Assembly (NCBI RefSeq): GCF_003752595.1
Contig: NZ_RKIJ01000009.1
Coordinates: 1-64,000, forward strand
Source: Cellulomonas sp. PhB143
GTDB taxonomy: Bacteria > Actinomycetota > Actinomycetes > Actinomycetales > Cellulomonadaceae
Length of the DNA: 64,000 nt
Direction: 5' to 3'
This document shows positions 15,866 through 58,661 of the stretch, piece after piece. A program made the translations under genes and the position numbers. The number at the start of each line of letters is the position of its first letter. The first letter of the stretch is position 1. Below the pieces are notes generated by a model. It did not search any database. It saw nothing but the letters and a program-made list of their open reading frames with translations, and was not told the origin of the DNA.

Positions 15866-17074
15866 TCACCCGGCGACGGCGCGCCTGCGGTGGAGCAGCC
15901 ACCATGCCGTGACGAGGTCCTCCGTGCGGCGCACGTCCAGCCCGGTCAGCTCGCGGAACCGGTTGACCCGGTAGCGCACCGTGTTCGGGTGCACGGTCAG
16001 GCGCTCGGCGACCCGCCCGACGCGCTGGTCGTGCTCGAGGTAGAGCCTGGTCGTCTCCTCGACGTCGAGGCCGCTCCGGCCCTCCGCGTCCAGGCGTGCG
16101 AGGAGCCGCGCCTCGAGCCCGGTCGCGACCCGGTCAGCGGCGAGCACGAGCGGCCGCGGCCCGAGGTCCGCGAGGCGTACGACCCCGCTCGTCCCGAACC
16201 GCTCCGCCGTCGCCAGCGCGGTCTCGGCCTCCTCGAACCCGGCGTGCAGGTCCTCCAGGCCCTGGCGCGGTCCGACCGCGACGAGCCTGCCCTCGTCCGC
16301 CACCGGCGCGCGCGCGGCGATGCACCCGAGGCTCGAGCCGAGCTCCGCGAACAGCAGCCGGTCGGCGGGCGTGCGCAGTGCCCGCGCCACGCCCCGCCGC
16401 GCGTCCTCGGCGCCGACGCCGTCGCCCCGCGCGACGACGGCGACGTACCGCGCCGCGGAGTCGAGGCCGAACAGCGGCGCGTCGAGCGCTATCCGCTCGG
16501 CGGTGAAGGAGCCCGTGAGCACGCCACGGGCGAAGGCGGACCGGCGCTCGGCGTCGAGCCGGGCGCCCTCGACCGCGAGGTCGTGGCGGATCTGCGCGAA
16601 GATCGCCGAGGCCTCGTTCGAGAACTCCCACGTGCTGTCGTGCACCGCGAGCAGGAGCCCCGGCGGCAGGTCCACCTCGGCCGCGATGCGGTCCATCAGC
16701 TCGAGCATCTCGCGCGAGCCCAGCTGGTAGGAGACCGCGAGCGCCTCCATGGACATCCCCCGCGAGACCCGCTCGTGCGCGAAGCCGACGAGCGTCTCGC
16801 GCAGCGCGTCGTCGGGCACGCGGTACGACTCGAGCTCGCCGGCCATGATGTCGACGAACCCGTGTGCGGAGTCGCGGATCTCGTCGTCGGTGTAGAGGTC
16901 GTACTCCGGGACGTTCTGTCGGGCCGTGAGGAGGAACCGCTCGCCGAACTCGCCGCGCGCCGCCCGGAGCCTGCGTGCGGTCTCGAGCACGGCGCCGCGC
17001 AGCGGCTCGTCGAGGCTCGCGAGGTCGGGCAGCCGGGTACGCCGGGGCCAGGCCGCGGCGGAGTCGTTCTCCAT
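15866..17074 (-). CDS. PucR family transcriptional regulator
   Basis: 402 residues from the ATG at 17074; upstream reading in frame crosses the divergent MFS start and is not credible. The C-terminus carries the PucR HTH_30 domain (RVAERLTVHPNTVRYRVNRF, with LTGLDVRRTEDLVTAWWLL after it). The middle is the degenerate GGDEF-like region usual in CdaR/PucR proteins, and the N-terminus is a helical RsbT/CdaR-like domain. Such regulators activate catabolic operons in response to a metabolite. It is divergent from, and probably controls, the ten-gene operon starting at 17241. Confidence 0.88.
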   Translation of the reverse strand: MENDSAAAWPRRTRLPDLASLDEPLRGAVLETARRLRAARGEFGERFLLTARQNVPEYDLYTDDEIRDSAHGFVDIMAGELESYRVPDDALRETLVGFAHERVSRGMSMEALAVSYQLGSREMLELMDRIAAEVDLPPGLLLAVHDSTWEFSNEASAIFAQIRHDLAVEGARLDAERRSAFARGVLTGSFTAERIALDAPLFGLDSAARYVAVVARGDGVGAEDARRGVARALRTPADRLLFAELGSSLGCIAARAPVADEGRLVAVGPRQGLEDLHAGFEEAETALATAERFGTSGVVRLADLGPRPLVLAADRVATGLEARLLARLDAEGRSGLDVEETTRLYLEHDQRVGRVAERLTVHPNTVRYRVNRFRELTGLDVRRTEDLVTAWWLLHRRRAVAG

Positions 17075-36917: not shown

Positions 36918-38603
36918 ATGACCGACACGGACGTCATCGTCATCGGCGCGGGCCTGGCCGGCCTCGTCACCGCCGCGGAGCTCACCGCCGCCGGCCGCCG
37001 GGTGGTCCTGCTCGACCAGGAGCCCGCGGCGAGCCTCGGGGGCCAGGCGTACTGGTCCTTCGGCGGGCTGTTCCTCGTCGGGTCCCCGGAGCAGCGGCGG
37101 CTCGGGGTGTCCGACGACGCCGACCTCGCCCTCGAGGACTGGCTCGGCTCCGCGGACTTCGCCCCCGGCGCGGCCGACGGCGTCGGTCCCGACCGGCACG
37201 GCTACGCCTGGGCGCGCTCGTTCGTCGAGTTCGCGGCCGGCGAGATGCGGCCCTGGCTGCACGGGCTCGGCGTGCGGTGGTTCCCGCTCGTGCAGTGGGC
37301 GGAGCGCGGCGGGTACGCGGCCGGCGGGCACGGCAACACCGTCCCGCGGTTCCACGTCACCTGGGGCACCGGTCCCGGCCTGCTCGAGCCGTTCGTCCGG
37401 GCGGCGCTCGACGCGCACGCCGCCGGCCTCCTGGACCTGCGGTCCCGCCACCGGGTGACCTCGCTCGTCACGACCGGCGGTCGGGTCACCGGCGTGCGCG
37501 CGCAGGTGCTGGCCCCGGACCGCGCCGGGCGCGGGGAGCCGTCCTCGCGCGACGTCGTCGGCGACGTCGAGCTGTCGGCGAGCGCCGTCGTCGTCGCCTC
37601 CGGGGGGATCGGGGCGAACCACGAGCTGGTGCGCTCGCGCTGGCCGGCCGCGGCCGGGCCGCTGCCCGGACGCATGCTGTCCGGGGTGCCGGACTCGACC
37701 GACGGGCTGATGATCGGCGCCGCCGCGGAGGCGGGTGCGGCCCTCGTGCACGAGGACCGCATGTGGCACTACCCCGAGGGCATCGCGAACCACTCCCCCG
37801 TGTGGTCCCGGCACGGCATCCGGATCCTGCCGGGCCCGTCGCCGCTGTGGCTCGACGCCGACGGCGGGCGCCTGCCCGCGCCGCTCTTCCCCGGGTTCGA
37901 CGCACTCGGGGCGCTGCGGCACGTCACCGCCCGCGGCGACGACCACTCCTGGTTCGTGCTCAACCGCACGATCATGGAGACCGAGTTCGCGCTGTCCGGG
38001 TCCGAGCAGAACCCCGACCTGACCGGCCGCGACCTGCGGCTCCTCGCCCGGCGGGTGATGCCGGGCGCCGTCGGGCCCGTGGCGCGGTTCGCCGCGGCGT
38101 CCCCCGAGTTCGTCTGGGGGGCCGACCCCGCCGAGCTCGCCGCCGGGATGAACGCCCTGGTCGCCGCGACGCCGGGCTCGCGCGGGACCGTCGACGCGGC
38201 CGCGCTCGCGCGCACGATCGCGCTGCGGGACGCCCAGGTGCGCTCCGGCCTCGGCAAGGACCCGCAGGTGGTGGCCACGGCCGCCGCGCGCCGCTTCCGC
38301 GTCGACCGGCTGATGCGCGTGGCGCCGCCGCGGCCGCTCGTCGACCCGTCCGACGGGCCGCTGCTGGCGGTCCGGCTCTCGGTGCTGACGCGCAAGACGC
38401 TCGGCGGGCTGCACACGGACGCCTCGGCGCGCGCGCTCGACGGGGCGGGCGAGGTGCTGCCCGGGCTGTGGGCGGTGGGCGAGGCGGCGGGGTTCGGCGG
38501 CGGGGGCGTGCACGGGCACCGCGCGCTCGAGGGCACGTTCCTCGGCGGGTGCGTGCACACGGGGCGCGTCGCGGGGCGGGCGGTGGCGGCGGAGCTCGCC
38601 TGA
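36918..38603 (+). CDS. FAD-binding dehydrogenase (KstD/fumarate reductase-like)
   Basis: 561 residues. VIVIGAGLAGLVTAAEL with a downstream Asp binds FAD, followed by SLGGQAYWSFGGLF. The closing GGLHTDASARAL and GLWAVGEAAGFGGGGVHGHRALEGTFLGG are typical of the flavocytochrome-c/3-ketosteroid-dehydrogenase superfamily. No signal peptide or membrane segment is seen. Substrate unknown; neighbours give no clear link to glycogen metabolism. It converges on the nuclease gene, with a palindromic repeat between. Confidence 0.82.
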   Translation: MTDTDVIVIGAGLAGLVTAAELTAAGRRVVLLDQEPAASLGGQAYWSFGGLFLVGSPEQRRLGVSDDADLALEDWLGSADFAPGAADGVGPDRHGYAWARSFVEFAAGEMRPWLHGLGVRWFPLVQWAERGGYAAGGHGNTVPRFHVTWGTGPGLLEPFVRAALDAHAAGLLDLRSRHRVTSLVTTGGRVTGVRAQVLAPDRAGRGEPSSRDVVGDVELSASAVVVASGGIGANHELVRSRWPAAAGPLPGRMLSGVPDSTDGLMIGAAAEAGAALVHEDRMWHYPEGIANHSPVWSRHGIRILPGPSPLWLDADGGRLPAPLFPGFDALGALRHVTARGDDHSWFVLNRTIMETEFALSGSEQNPDLTGRDLRLLARRVMPGAVGPVARFAAASPEFVWGADPAELAAGMNALVAATPGSRGTVDAAALARTIALRDAQVRSGLGKDPQVVATAAARRFRVDRLMRVAPPRPLVDPSDGPLLAVRLSVLTRKTLGGLHTDASARALDGAGEVLPGLWAVGEAAGFGGGGVHGHRALEGTFLGGCVHTGRVAGRAVAAELA

Positions 38604-38686: not shown

Positions 38687-38758
38687 CCGCGAGTTCGATG
38701 CTGCGGCGCGAGTTCGATGCCGAGGGGGTCGACCTCGCGCCGGAGCATCGAACTCGCG
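38687..38758 (+). repeat. palindromic repeat element, left copy
   Basis: Contains CCGCGAGTTCGATGCTGCGG (38687-38706), a second GCGAGTTCGATGC at 38708-38720 and an inverted copy at 38745-38757. Bases 689-712 and 734-757 of this kilobase form a 24-bp inverted repeat with one mismatch around a 21-nt loop. The first 32 bases match the right copy near 39893 in inverted orientation at 30 of 32 positions. It begins right after the nuclease stop codon and could also act as a terminator between convergent genes. Confidence 0.75.
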
Positions 38759-38759
38759 C

Positions 38760-39683
38760 TCAGCGGGACGCCGTCGTGCGCCGCAGCAGCGCGGCGATCC
38801 TCGCCACCACGCGTTCCGGGTCCCTCAGGTCAGCCCAGGTGACGCGCACGATCCGCCATCCCGCCTCGGTCAGCGCGTCGTGGCGCTCCTTCTCCGCGGC
38901 GAGCCGGGCCCGCGGATCCCCGAACGATCCGCCCGAGTACTTCACGGCAGCGTCGAACTCCACGCCGACGAGAGACTGCGGCCAGCCACCGTCGAGGCGC
39001 ACCGTGCCCCGCCACGTGACCACCTCGTGCTGCGGCACGAACGGCGGGAGGCCGGCGGCGACCACGACGTGGCGCAGCAGCGTCTCGCCGGGCGACTCGG
39101 CGCGGCCATCCATCGTTGCCAGGACCTCGCGAGCCCTGCGGACGCCGCGCCCTCTGACGACGGCCTCGAGACGTCGCTCGATCTCGGCCCGGCGCGCACC
39201 GAGCCGCAGGGCCGAGTCGGCAACCACCAGCCCCTGCGGCACGGGGAGCAGCCTCGCGCAGTCCACGACGGTCCGCTCGAGCGACGTCACCGGGAGCCCG
39301 TGGCGCTCCGCGCGATCCGCTGCCGGCACGTCGCTGCGGTGGCGGGCGAGAGTCGCGTCCTGACAGCCCGCCCCGCTGGGACGCCCGAGCTGGGTGACGT
39401 GCGGCACGGGGTCCAGCCGCCACGTCCAGCAGCCCCAGAGCAGCGCCGCACTGGTGTGGCTGAACCAGTAGCGCGTCGTCAGCACCTCCGCGACGGCTCG
39501 GACGTGCGCGAGCGCCTCCTCCCGTCTGCGCAGGGCCGCCGACGACGGGGCGGTGGCGGCCGCGACGTAGACGCCGCGTCGAGGACGCCATGCGTTCCCG
39601 GCGCGGAGGGCCGCCTCGACGTCGGTCCGTGTCGCGCCGACGGAGCGCAGCGCCGGCGGGGGCGCGTCCTCGTGAGGTGTCAT
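38760..39683 (-). CDS. AbiEi-like/DUF559 nuclease-fold protein
   Basis: 307 residues. The N-terminal third ([14 protein letters not shown], then [14 protein letters not shown]) resembles the winged-helix AbiEi-type antitoxin/regulator domain. The C-terminal DUF559 (Vsr/PD-(D/E)XK-like) domain has [17 protein letters not shown] and [20 protein letters not shown], retaining plausible acidic active-site residues and the Lys/Glu helix. Proteins of this build are abundant in Micrococcales and have no settled function. No methyltransferase or toxin gene is beside it. It lies between two inverted copies of a palindromic repeat, suggesting that gene and repeats form one unit. Confidence 0.75.
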
Positions 39684-39859
39684 CGTCCGATCATCGGCAG
39701 CCGGGCTCGCGGGCCGCGCGCTCGGCGGCCGCGCCCTGTGGATGGGCGGCAGATCCACATGCGGCCGCCGCGACGTCACCGCACGACCCACCGCGCCGCA
39801 CCTCGCGGCACGCTCGACGGGTCTCGACCGCACCAGCCACCGCGAGCTCGACGTTGCCG

Positions 39860-39912
39860 CTCGAGTTCGATACCGCGGCGATCGAACTCGGTCCGCAGCA
39901 TCGAACTCGCGG
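39860..39912 (-). repeat. palindromic repeat element, right copy (inverted)
   Basis: Read on the minus strand it starts with the same 20 bases as the left copy (39893-39912), then two differing bases and CGAGTTCGAT. The rest has another inverted GATCGAACTCG arm and a CGAGTTCGATAC arm. Together with the left copy it bounds a roughly 1.23-kb unit that carries only the nuclease gene. No clear target-site duplication is visible outside the repeats. Confidence 0.72.
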
Positions 39913-40021: not shown

Positions 40022-42516
40022 GTGACCCGAGCCAGGCGACGCCCTCAGCCGACCGAACCCCCGACGTCCGAACCGTCGGCAGCACCCGAACCGGCGGCGA
40101 CCGGCCCGAACCCGACCCCCGGTCCCGCACCCGCGCCGAGGCGCGCGCCCGCGAGCGCCGCCCGCAAGCCGCCGGCGCCCCGTCGCGCCGCCGGCACGCG
40201 TACCGGCGCCGTACCGGCGGCCGCGACGCGAGCCTCGACGGCCGCCGTCGGGTCGGCGCGCAGCACCGTGGCGGCCGCTGCCGAGCACCCGACGCGCAGC
40301 GCGGTGGCCGCGACCGCGCCGCTGACGGCTGCCCCCGCCCCGACGTCTGCCGCCACTCCCACGCCTGCCGCCGCCACGACGCGGTCTGCCGCACCCGCTC
40401 CGGAGACGCCGGCGGCACGCCCGACGCCGTCCGCCCCCCAGCCCAGCTCGTCCGCCGCGACGCTCCCCGCCGCCCCGGCCACCCGGCCCGCCCCGCCGGA
40501 CGCCGTCGTCCCCGAGCCCAGGCCCGCCTCCCCGCGCCCGGTCGGGCGCATCCCGGTCGTCGAGGTGGCGCCAGCGATCGAGGACGGCCGCTGGCCCGCC
40601 AAGGCAGCGGTCGGCGAGGCCCTGCCGATCGAGGCGACCGTCTTCCGCGAGGGGCACGACGCCGTCTCGGCGTCCGCGGTCCTCCTCGCCCCGGACGGCA
40701 GCACGCACAGCACGGTGACGATGGTCGACGTCGCGCCCGGCCTCGACCGCTTCCGGGCGGTCGTGCTGCCCGACGCGCCGGGCGACTGGTCGTTCCGCGT
40801 CGAGGGCTGGTCCGACCCGTACGCGACCTGGGCGCACGACGCCCTGATCAAGGTCGCCGCCGGGCTCGACGTGGCCCTGATGCTGACGGAGGGCGAGCGG
40901 GTGCTGCGCCGCGCCCTGGAGCAGACGTCCCCCGCGCCCGAGGACGCCCGCACCGTCGAGGCCGCCGTCGCCGCTCTCGGGGACCAGGACCGTCCGGCCG
41001 AGGCACGCGTCGCGGCCGCGACGTCGTCCGAGGTGCGCGAGGCGCTGGCCCGCGACCCGCTGCGCGACATGGTCTCCCCGTCGGCGACCTATCCCCTGCG
41101 CGTGGACCGCCCGCTGGCGCTGTCCGGCGCCTGGTACGAGATGTTCCCGCGCTCGGAGGGCGCCCGGCAGCGCGACGACGGCAGCTGGGTCTCCGGCACC
41201 TTCACGACGGCGGCCCGCCGGCTCCCGGACATCGCTGCGATGGGGTTCGACGTCGTCTACCTCACCCCCGTCCACCCCATCGGCACCACGTACCGCAAGG
41301 GCCGCAACAACTCCCTGACTGCGCTGCCGGGCGACCCGGGCTCGCCGTACGCGATCGGCTCGCCCGACGGCGGCCACGACGCCATCCACCCGGACCTCGG
41401 GTCGGAGCGCACGTTCGCGGGCTTCGTGGAGAGCGCCCGCTCGCTGGGCATGGAGGTCGCCATCGACCTCGCCCTGCAGTGCTCGCCGGACCACCCGTGG
41501 GTGACGGAGCACCCGGAGTGGTTCACGACCCGCGCGGACGGCACGATCGCCTACGCGGAGAACCCGCCGAAGAAGTACCAGGACATCTTCCCGCTGAACT
41601 TCGACAACGACCCGGAGGGCATCTACGCGGAGATCCTGCGGGTCGTGCGCGTGTGGATCGAGCGCGGCGTGACCCTGTTCCGCGTCGACAACCCGCACAC
41701 CAAGCCGCTGGTCTTCTGGGAGCGCCTGCTCGCGGAGGTCCGCGCCACCGACCCGGACGTGATCTTCCTGTCGGAGGCGTTCACCAAGCCCGCGATGATG
41801 CGCACCCTCGCGGCGATCGGCTTCCACCAGTCGTACACCTACTTCACGTGGCGCAACACGAAGGCGGAGCTGGAGGAGTACCTCGAGACCGTCTCGGGCC
41901 CCGAGGGCTCCGTGCTGCGCCCGAGCTTCTGGCCGACGACGCACGACATCCTCCCGCCGTACCTGCAGCACGGCGGGGTGGCCGGGTTCGCGGTGCGCGC
42001 GGTGCTCGCCGCGCTCGGCTCGCCGACGTGGGGCGTGTACTCGGGCTACGAGCTCGTGGAGAACGTCCCGCGCCCGGGCGTCGAGGAGCAGATCGACAAC
42101 GAGAAGTACGAGTACAAGCCGCGGGACTGGTCCCGCGCCCCCGAGATCGGCATCAGCACGCTGATCACCGCGCTCAACGAGGTTCGTCGCGCGCACCCGG
42201 CGCTGCGCCAGCTGCGCAACCTCACGGTCCACCCGACGAGCAACGAGCACGTCGTAGCCTTCTCCCGCCACCTGGCGGCGGAGCACTCGCCGACCGGCGA
42301 GCCGGACACGGTGCTCGTCGTCGTCAACCTCGACCCGTGGACGGCCCAGGCCGCCACGGTCGACGTCGACCTCGCGGCGCTCGGGCTGGAGCCCGACGAC
42401 GCGACGACGTACTCCGCGCACGACCTCCTCTCGGGGGAGCAGTACGCCTGGGGAGCCCACCCCTGGGTCCGCCTCGACCCCTACACCCAGGTCGCCCACG
42501 TGATCGAGGTCCGCCC

Positions 42517-42520
<4 letters not shown>
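40022..42520 (+). CDS. glgE: Alpha-1,4-glucan:maltose-1-phosphate maltosyltransferase GlgE
   Basis: 832 residues against the usual 660-680: the first roughly 175 residues are a low-complexity Ala/Pro/Thr-rich extension with no recognised domain. The rest is normal GlgE (GH13_3): an N-terminal beta domain beginning [19 protein letters not shown], then the barrel with [11 protein letters not shown] (nucleophile Asp, about 558), [12 protein letters not shown] (Glu, about 584) and [17 protein letters not shown]. It extends alpha-1,4-glucan with maltose-1-phosphate. First gene of glgE-treS-mak-glgB; its TGA overlaps the treS ATG. Confidence 0.93.
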
Positions 42521-58570: not shown

Positions 58571-58596
58571 CCCGTCCTGACCCACGCACCACCACC

Positions 58597-58630
58597 CCGA
58601 AGGGCCCGGCCGCACGGCCGGGCCCTTCGG
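58597..58630. terminator. strong hairpin terminator after FKBP gene
   Basis: CCGAAGGGCCCGGCCG and its perfect 16-bp complement are separated by 2 nt. It lies 27 bp after the FKBP stop codon and ends 45 bp before the next gene. The T-run is absent, as often in very GC-rich genomes. Confidence 0.7.
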
Positions 58631-58661
58631 CGTCCGCGGCGCACGCGCACCCCCGAGCACC

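Follow-up and report, generated by a model that had tools for sequence, protein, structure and literature searches.

As a rule, REP elements are associated with a single transposase superfamily, and RAYTs are tyrosine transposases. In the portions of the literature on which we draw, REP sequences are extragenic palindromes, also arranged as inverted doublets, that are dispersed and also stand beside one gene, and the RAYT gene is single-copy, inherited vertically, not observed on plasmids and associated with one repeat group to each gene in genomes that have several (PMC3116915, PMC8049555, PMC3733652). The part of the SBW25 account used here describes three RAYTs that adjoin three REPIN groups in Pseudomonas fluorescens SBW25 (PMC3116915), and the words actinobacteria, actinomyc, arthrobacter and streptomyces do not appear in the text of PMC3733652.

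We analyzed a 64-kb window (the whole stretch of DNA under study, from Cellulomonas sp. PhB143), in which a nuclease gene is enclosed by two palindromes as follows:

36918..38603, plus strand: left neighbor, FAD-binding dehydrogenase (NCBIfam NF009472, 802 bits, cut-off 476), used as synteny anchor
38688..38758, no strand assigned: left palindrome, with GAGTTCGA at 38691 and 38710, then TCGACCTC and TCGAACTC; four half-sites at a 19-bp pitch
38760..39683, minus strand: nuclease gene, 307 codons, AbiEi-like plus Vsr-like PD-(D/E)XK
38769..39095, minus strand: nuclease domain (model residues 196-304); D230, E241 and D243 invariant, K247 near-invariant
39108..39659, minus strand: AbiEi-like part (model residues 8-191), from VIA-align and PADLOC
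39840..39912, no strand assigned: right palindrome, its outer end an inverted copy of the left palindrome (30/32)
40022..42520, plus strand: right neighbor, amylase-like protein, presumably GlgE; one NCBIfam amylase match (44 of 875 bits, far under the cut-off)

The nuclease and the palindromes that enclose it

A sequence-only reading of the window had placed a single gene between near-identical inverted repeats, and both statements held: the gene 39683-38760 (minus strand, 307 codons) lies alone there, and the repeats, read from 38687 (plus) and from 39912 (minus), are identical at 30 of 32 positions, including the first 20. Folding of the left element reproduced the 24-bp stem with one mismatch that had been described (15 + 9 = 24 bp) and added 7 more pairs beyond it. 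The further motif copies reported inside both repeats were also recovered, as five of the six window matches of CGAGTTCGATGCTGCGG, a 17-mer searched with up to 3 mismatches, fall within them, and the sixth (3 mismatches) lies inside the nuclease gene; by comparison, 0.54 matches were expected and none of 100 shuffles reached six. Three hairpins in the window have an arm score of at least 15, and the two flanking palindromes rank highest among them (25 and 17). A 40-bp hairpin at 58594-58633 (score 16.5) is of a different kind and falls outside the nuclease-flanking repeat family. A candidate copy of a second repeat type at window position 16301 was dropped as a GC-rich match that long ORFs overlap.

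The assignment of the protein to AbiEi and DUF559 domains stood by fold for both parts and by PADLOC for the AbiEi part, but was weak in Pfam and NCBIfam: the sole Pfam match of the PhB143 protein was MTES_1575, under its cut-off, and the NCBIfam search with this protein returned no match. The AlphaFold model (pLDDT 92.4, pTM 0.90) was built from a 54-sequence alignment that comprises the PhB143 protein and 53 of 66 others, which came from the 66 of the 80 named loci introduced below that yielded a usable protein, the remaining 13 being omitted by choice. Foldseek returned one match to this model at E <= 0.001, Rv2827c. With VIA-align, residues 8-191 matched the AbiEi antitoxin 6y8q (Z 10.0, rmsd 6.0, 160 residues) and Rv2827c (1zel, Z 8.0), and the PADLOC AbiEi models matched the nuclease protein (best E 2.4e-9) and all 54 aligned family members. 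Residues 196-304 matched the catalytic domain of I-Bth0305I (3r3p, Z 10.1, rmsd 2.7, 97/97 residues), 3hrl (Z 9.8) and Vsr (1vsr, Z 7.2, a value that means little by itself). D230, E241 and D243 are invariant across the alignment and K247 is almost so, and the fold points to these four as the putative catalytic residues. At E <= 0.01, MTES_1575 matched 28 of the 54 members and DUF559 matched 8, and there was no transposase family among the six Pfam families found. We consider the product of the PhB143 gene a likely DNA-cutting enzyme.

The protein shares its nuclease fold and conserved acidic residues with the Vsr-like nucleases (MTES_1575/DUF559, I-Bth0305I and Vsr), for which we found no described link to dispersed palindromes in the open-access literature; MTES_1575 was named as a Vsr-type domain that belongs to a large protein containing HEPN (PMC3710099). 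An AbiEi domain is likewise present in the AbiE type IV toxin-antitoxin systems, but in PhB143 the AbiEi-like part is fused to a nuclease domain, and at the window locus no AbiEii toxin gene adjoins it, the neighbors being the FAD dehydrogenase and the amylase-like protein.

Private repeats in PhB143 and in relatives

The 3.2-Mb PhB143 genome contains 14 exact 12-mers of CGAGTTCGATGC (0 for the reversed pattern), and the four-half-site pattern recovers eight elements genome-wide, two at the gene and six solo (reversed control, 0), to which BLAST adds a possible ninth at C1:560842. Every one of the eight elements has the form A-A-A'-A', where A is GAG(T/G)TCGA, at a pitch of 19 bp. By a GC-by-position test, all six solo copies fall outside coding ORFs, and three are situated between convergent genes. 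This strict pattern is present in 6 of 150 family genomes, PhB143 among them.

No near-identical complete unit was found in PhB143: the three further homologues (C3:213441, C1:138411 and C11:19638) share 32-38% identity with the window protein, and their repeats are different. Each of them lies between its own repeat pair, with scores of 78, 76 and 47 within pairs and 19-25 in all six cross pairs among the three (900-bp flanks, longer than those used for the named loci, judged against their own cross pairs). Because each pair is of another type, the four homologues examined represent four nuclease genes with four repeats; a profile search counts five homologues, compared to four from the protein search, and repeats were checked at four. 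This arrangement resembles the three RAYTs with three REPIN groups of SBW25, as far as the account of that strain used here goes.

The main rival to an enzyme that spreads its own repeats is a sequence-specific regulator or genome-organizing nuclease, for which the palindromes would be selected binding sites, such as operators, terminators or boundary sites. AbiEi antitoxins bind DNA, and the N-terminal fold resembles one of them; the avoidance of coding ORFs by all six solo copies, the placement of three between convergent genes, where terminators serve, and the stability of repeat sites between the near-identical strains G097 and G111 would also suit such a protein. We nevertheless regard maintained regulator sites as unlikely, though deserving to be taken seriously, because copies flank the gene on both sides, solo copies lie at unrelated genes, their presence is species-specific and four homologues in PhB143 have four repeats. 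An autoregulatory operator alone was rejected, as it fails on the downstream and solo copies; its wider form is the regulator just described.

To extend the comparison, we scanned contigs for homologues (227 stretches, 180 relatives) and used the best 80 of the 180 relatives, which we take from their names to be mostly Micrococcales, as named loci. Hairpins with an arm score of at least 16 were present within 600 bp upstream at 47/80 loci, within 400 bp downstream at 45/80 and on both sides at 32/80, compared to 27 of 839 control windows and none inside the nuclease genes. When upstream and downstream flanks were scored against each other without requiring hairpins (79 of the 80 loci, L118 being removed for its short flank), 69/79 scored above the 95% point (19.7) of the cross-locus pairs and 53/79 above their 99% point (35.0), with 10/79 failing at 95%; the median score of the named loci was 43 versus 13. 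Two of 72 distant-flank control pairs from the same loci scored 20-25 and none scored higher, at least two thus passing the 95% limit. The matching flanks of the 69 passing loci are direct in 28, inverted in 19 and undecided in 22.

The repeat sequences themselves vary widely among loci (GAGATAGAACC, GAGATCGACC, GAGGTCGTC, TCGCCGGAA, TCGGTCGGTTG, TGCGTCAGCGG and others). We tested the pitch on 92 palindromes from 60 loci, 86 of which were of sufficient length: self-match at a lag of 19 averaged a best 6.5 of 8 bp versus 3.5 in shuffled arms, and 65 of the 86 showed a clear lag, with 19 among the best in 52/65 and 20 alone in 9/65. Palindrome length ranges from 54 to 93 bp (5th to 95th percentile). 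The sequence-only reading had proposed a search for the motif beyond the window locus. The repeats proved not to be confined to this place, and repeats of their kind are strongly enriched beside nuclease genes (32/80 on both sides, 69/79 with matching flanks).

Across the class, homologues at E <= 1e-25 occur in 106/148 genomes, and the flank test (28 of 29 loci, L199 being removed for its short flank) placed 26/28 loci above the 95% limit (20.1), with 2/28 failing, and 0/28 above the 99% limit, which is as high as 113 because related loci inflate it. The class-wide repeats are often longer, and are hairpin-like in some cases and not in others; inverted scores were best in 18 of the 26 pairs, with two near ties among all 26, and the matches at L191 and L204 have a low-complexity look. 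Hairpins abound in GC-rich genomes, and chance or host terminators could be invoked for matches like these last two, but as an account of the repeats this has a negligible probability given the hairpin, flank and dispersal controls and the 19-bp pitch; chance hairpins in particular were ruled out by the control windows, the distant flanks and the reversed patterns.

Copies are also dispersed in other genomes. The GAG.TCG-class pattern, defined by three of the four half-sites, occurs in 65/150 family genomes, compared to 1/150 for the reversed control (G135, 2). In G108 it gives 33 and 34 matches, one count per strand, and copies at C14:85 and C14:1185 bracket the homologue C14:153-1022. In G097, a single 4.86-Mb contig, the GAGATCGACC pair with up to 3 mismatches gives 35 matches (control 0), two of which flank the gene, and in the five other genomes queried it gives 34, 27, 16, 8 and 1. 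In another family in the class, matches of the ATGATCACGTTCACCAC element number 32 in G220 and 38 in G202 (control 0), and across ten genomes the element is less frequent in four besides these two and gives zero in four. In all GAGATCGACC and ATGATCACGTTCACCAC numbers, an element is counted twice if two of its arms or ends match. GAG.TCG palindromes, which represent one motif class, are found in 62/136 genomes with a homologue (E <= 1e-15) and 3/14 without, so homologue and palindromes are associated only loosely. One genome without a homologue at E <= 1e-15, G040, contains 14 GAG.TCG palindromes, perhaps an orphan population left after loss of the nuclease.

In G220 the gene lies between inverted ends at 4083913 (plus) and 4085119 (minus), a unit of about 1.24 kb. 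Several ATGATCACGTTCACCAC matches in G220 and G202 form inverted pairs only 130-155 bp apart, a spacing that leaves no room for a nuclease gene, and these pairs recall REPINs or MITEs. Such features, together with the 18/26 class-wide pairs that match best in inverted orientation, would be expected of an insertion sequence that has terminal inverted repeats, encodes a PD-(D/E)XK transposase and gives rise to MITE-like derivatives, and the resemblance to IS elements and MITEs extends to a gene with paired, often inverted repeats and to inverted pairs that lack a gene. We judge an insertion sequence very unlikely, however: a multicopy unit was not seen, there is no classical transposase, four homologues in PhB143 have four repeats, and no target duplication was read in flanks that are only ~75-80% identical. 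Searched against 72,556 records of plasmids and 50,697 of phages, the window protein gave no match at E <= 1e-8, and a profile of the 54 sequences run against IMG/VR contigs gave 45 pattern stretches, none of which was confirmed; on these searches we rejected a phage or plasmid origin. The earlier suggestion of a small transposable element was not borne out, in view of the synteny over seven genomes described below, the four repeats for four homologues and the sites shared by near-identical strains.

A syntenic site, and the co-divergence of gene and repeat

To compare the window locus with relatives, we took 8.2-kb stretches from 20 of the 28 other genomes that have the FAD gene. In the interval from the FAD dehydrogenase gene to that of the amylase-like protein, a palindrome-nuclease-palindrome arrangement is present in 6/20 relatives and in PhB143, that is, in seven genomes with five genus labels, and the nuclease is absent from the 8.2-kb stretch in 14/20, including the congener G060 (completeness 87%). 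Two of these 14 nuclease-free sites, in G002 and G019, hold a palindrome of the general nuclease-flanking type. The locus is therefore not unchanged among relatives, the unit being present or absent and the repeat sequence differing. Hairpins of unlike kinds stand beside the FAD gene in other nuclease-free genomes (e.g. G020, G016, G008 and G005). The unit of G010 (L175:2203-3424) is opposite in orientation to those of the six other occupied genomes, either through inversion via the flanking palindromes or through separate arrival, and in G011 the DNA that separates the nuclease unit from the FAD gene contains one more palindrome of the resident type, the third at this locus (L171:5869-5947).

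The nuclease domain has a homing endonuclease as its closest fold, and the gene-free palindromes of G002 and G019 at the syntenic site, together with the inverted unit of G010, would fit a homing element whose targets are the solo palindromes, whose gene enters the cut site by palindrome recombination and whose removal or inversion follows from recombination between the flanks. Such an element seems improbable to us, since site and orientation are alike in six of the seven occupied genomes, we saw no genome in which one unit recurs at several places, PhB143 being the one surveyed for this, and the matching flanks have no single orientation (28 direct, 19 inverted and 22 undecided of 69); the hallmark of homing endonucleases, interruption of a conserved target gene or intron, is not seen at the window site, which is intergenic.

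The nuclease proteins at the syntenic site are 45-62% identical. The left and right repeats of the same genome score 33-64 against each other, whereas scores between genomes are mostly 12-20 (<=20 in 15/21 upstream and 32/42 cross pairs, >20 in 6/21 and 10/42), the high ones being due partly to coding flanks of neighbors and partly to related palindromes (G024-G044, G007-G011). Over 47 loci, repeat similarity correlates with protein identity (Spearman 0.22; 0 of 2000 permutations as high), weakly because repeats of different loci can be aligned only over ~60% protein identity: similarity per base between loci is 0.12-0.14 under 60% protein identity and 0.37-0.44 over it, compared to 0.54 within a locus. 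We conclude that repeats and nuclease diverge together.

A REP-like reading and the turnover of palindromes

The original observation was confirmed and proved wider than first noted, as it takes in the bracketing of nuclease genes by matching repeats, a 19-bp four-half-site plan in Micrococcales and, for a number of genomes, copies dispersed elsewhere. A likely DNA-binding part joined to a nuclease, a regular four-site array, and arrays that are gene-specific and diverge with the gene together suggest that enzyme and palindrome are linked. The reading that we favor, and hold to be somewhat probable, is a REP-like system driven by a non-transposase enzyme, in which each AbiEi plus Vsr-like nuclease gene has its private palindrome. 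The AbiEi-like part would read the half-sites, the nuclease would nick or cut the palindrome, perhaps when it is extruded as a hairpin at the fork, and repair would, at a low rate, copy or rewrite palindromes elsewhere; the palindromes of a genome would hence come to match the specificity of the nuclease present there. The gene, for its part, would be mostly fixed in place and inherited vertically, like RAYTs.

The likeness to REP/RAYT systems that had been proposed stood for the architecture (bracketing, intergenic copies, gene-specific repeats and co-divergence), with extragenic palindromes that are dispersed and also flank the gene, but not for the enzyme or the GTAG tag. In place of a Y1 (HUH) transposase, residues 8-304 comprise AbiEi-like and Vsr-like folds; the palindromes are built of four half-sites spaced 19 bp apart and are 54-93 bp long; and their ends, read by eye, are CGAG, TCGG, TGCG and similar rather than GTAG. 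There are tens of nuclease-linked matches, compared to over a thousand REP 16-mers in SBW25 according to the part of that account used here. As the enzyme is unrelated to RAYTs, the nuclease system is not a member of the REPIN/RAYT group despite the shared architecture.

We know of no described repeat system to which the enzyme of this nuclease family or its repeat could be assigned. In line with the claim that no described system pairs the two, our searches of open-access papers, preprints excluded, yielded none, although an earlier description is possible; since neither enzyme nor repeat appeared there as part of a repeat system, we regard the system as new. We give even chances to the broader proposal that actinomycetes harbor a second REP-type system of independent origin, a large AbiEi-Vsr family, often with several members per genome, each propagating or rewriting private palindromes chromosome-wide, with specificities evolving in step. 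If this is true, gene-bound palindrome populations evolved at least twice, the second time around an unrelated nuclease fold; many actinobacterial genes labeled DUF559 or orphan AbiEi antitoxin would gain a context, and many natural enzyme-site pairs would be available for testing joint change of specificity between nuclease and dispersed sites.

Movement of the palindromes is inferred from differences between species. Three solo copies of G106 have no counterpart of the same type in G066 (3/3 places) or G311 (2/2 places). At the second of these places, 0/9 genomes have a hairpin of at least 13, and at site 1 a strong hairpin (23.5), of another type, is present in G008, with weak ones (13.0) in the stretches from G311 and G066. 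The flanks of these empty sites are only ~75-80% identical, so that gain and loss are not separable and no target duplication is read there. At the place of the PhB143 solo copy C9:2963, the empty-site comparison with relatives revealed that other DNA intervenes. In one case, the slot of this copy (L010:1512-1590) is occupied in G044 (L264:3119-3185) as well, each genome having a palindrome of its own type with a short right flank in common, GCGGCGTCC, which suggests either rewriting in place or repeated use of the site.

As judged by matching, with only a few places aligned, G097 and G111, whose nuclease loci are 99.2% identical, have nearly all repeat places in common. Sister species differ and near-identical strains are alike, and repeat differences are thus visible between species and hardly within them. 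Recent gain was rejected for this pair of strains, as there was no clean case among the places that differed at first: L243/L244 have the same flanks with the palindrome in both strains, and L247/L248 are likewise common to both. L249/L250 have the left flank in common and differ in the interior. At G097:C1:145004 and G111:C6:365743 (L245/L246), the palindrome lies at a breakpoint where the right flanks agree and the left flanks are unrelated, and palindromes may act as recombination junctions.
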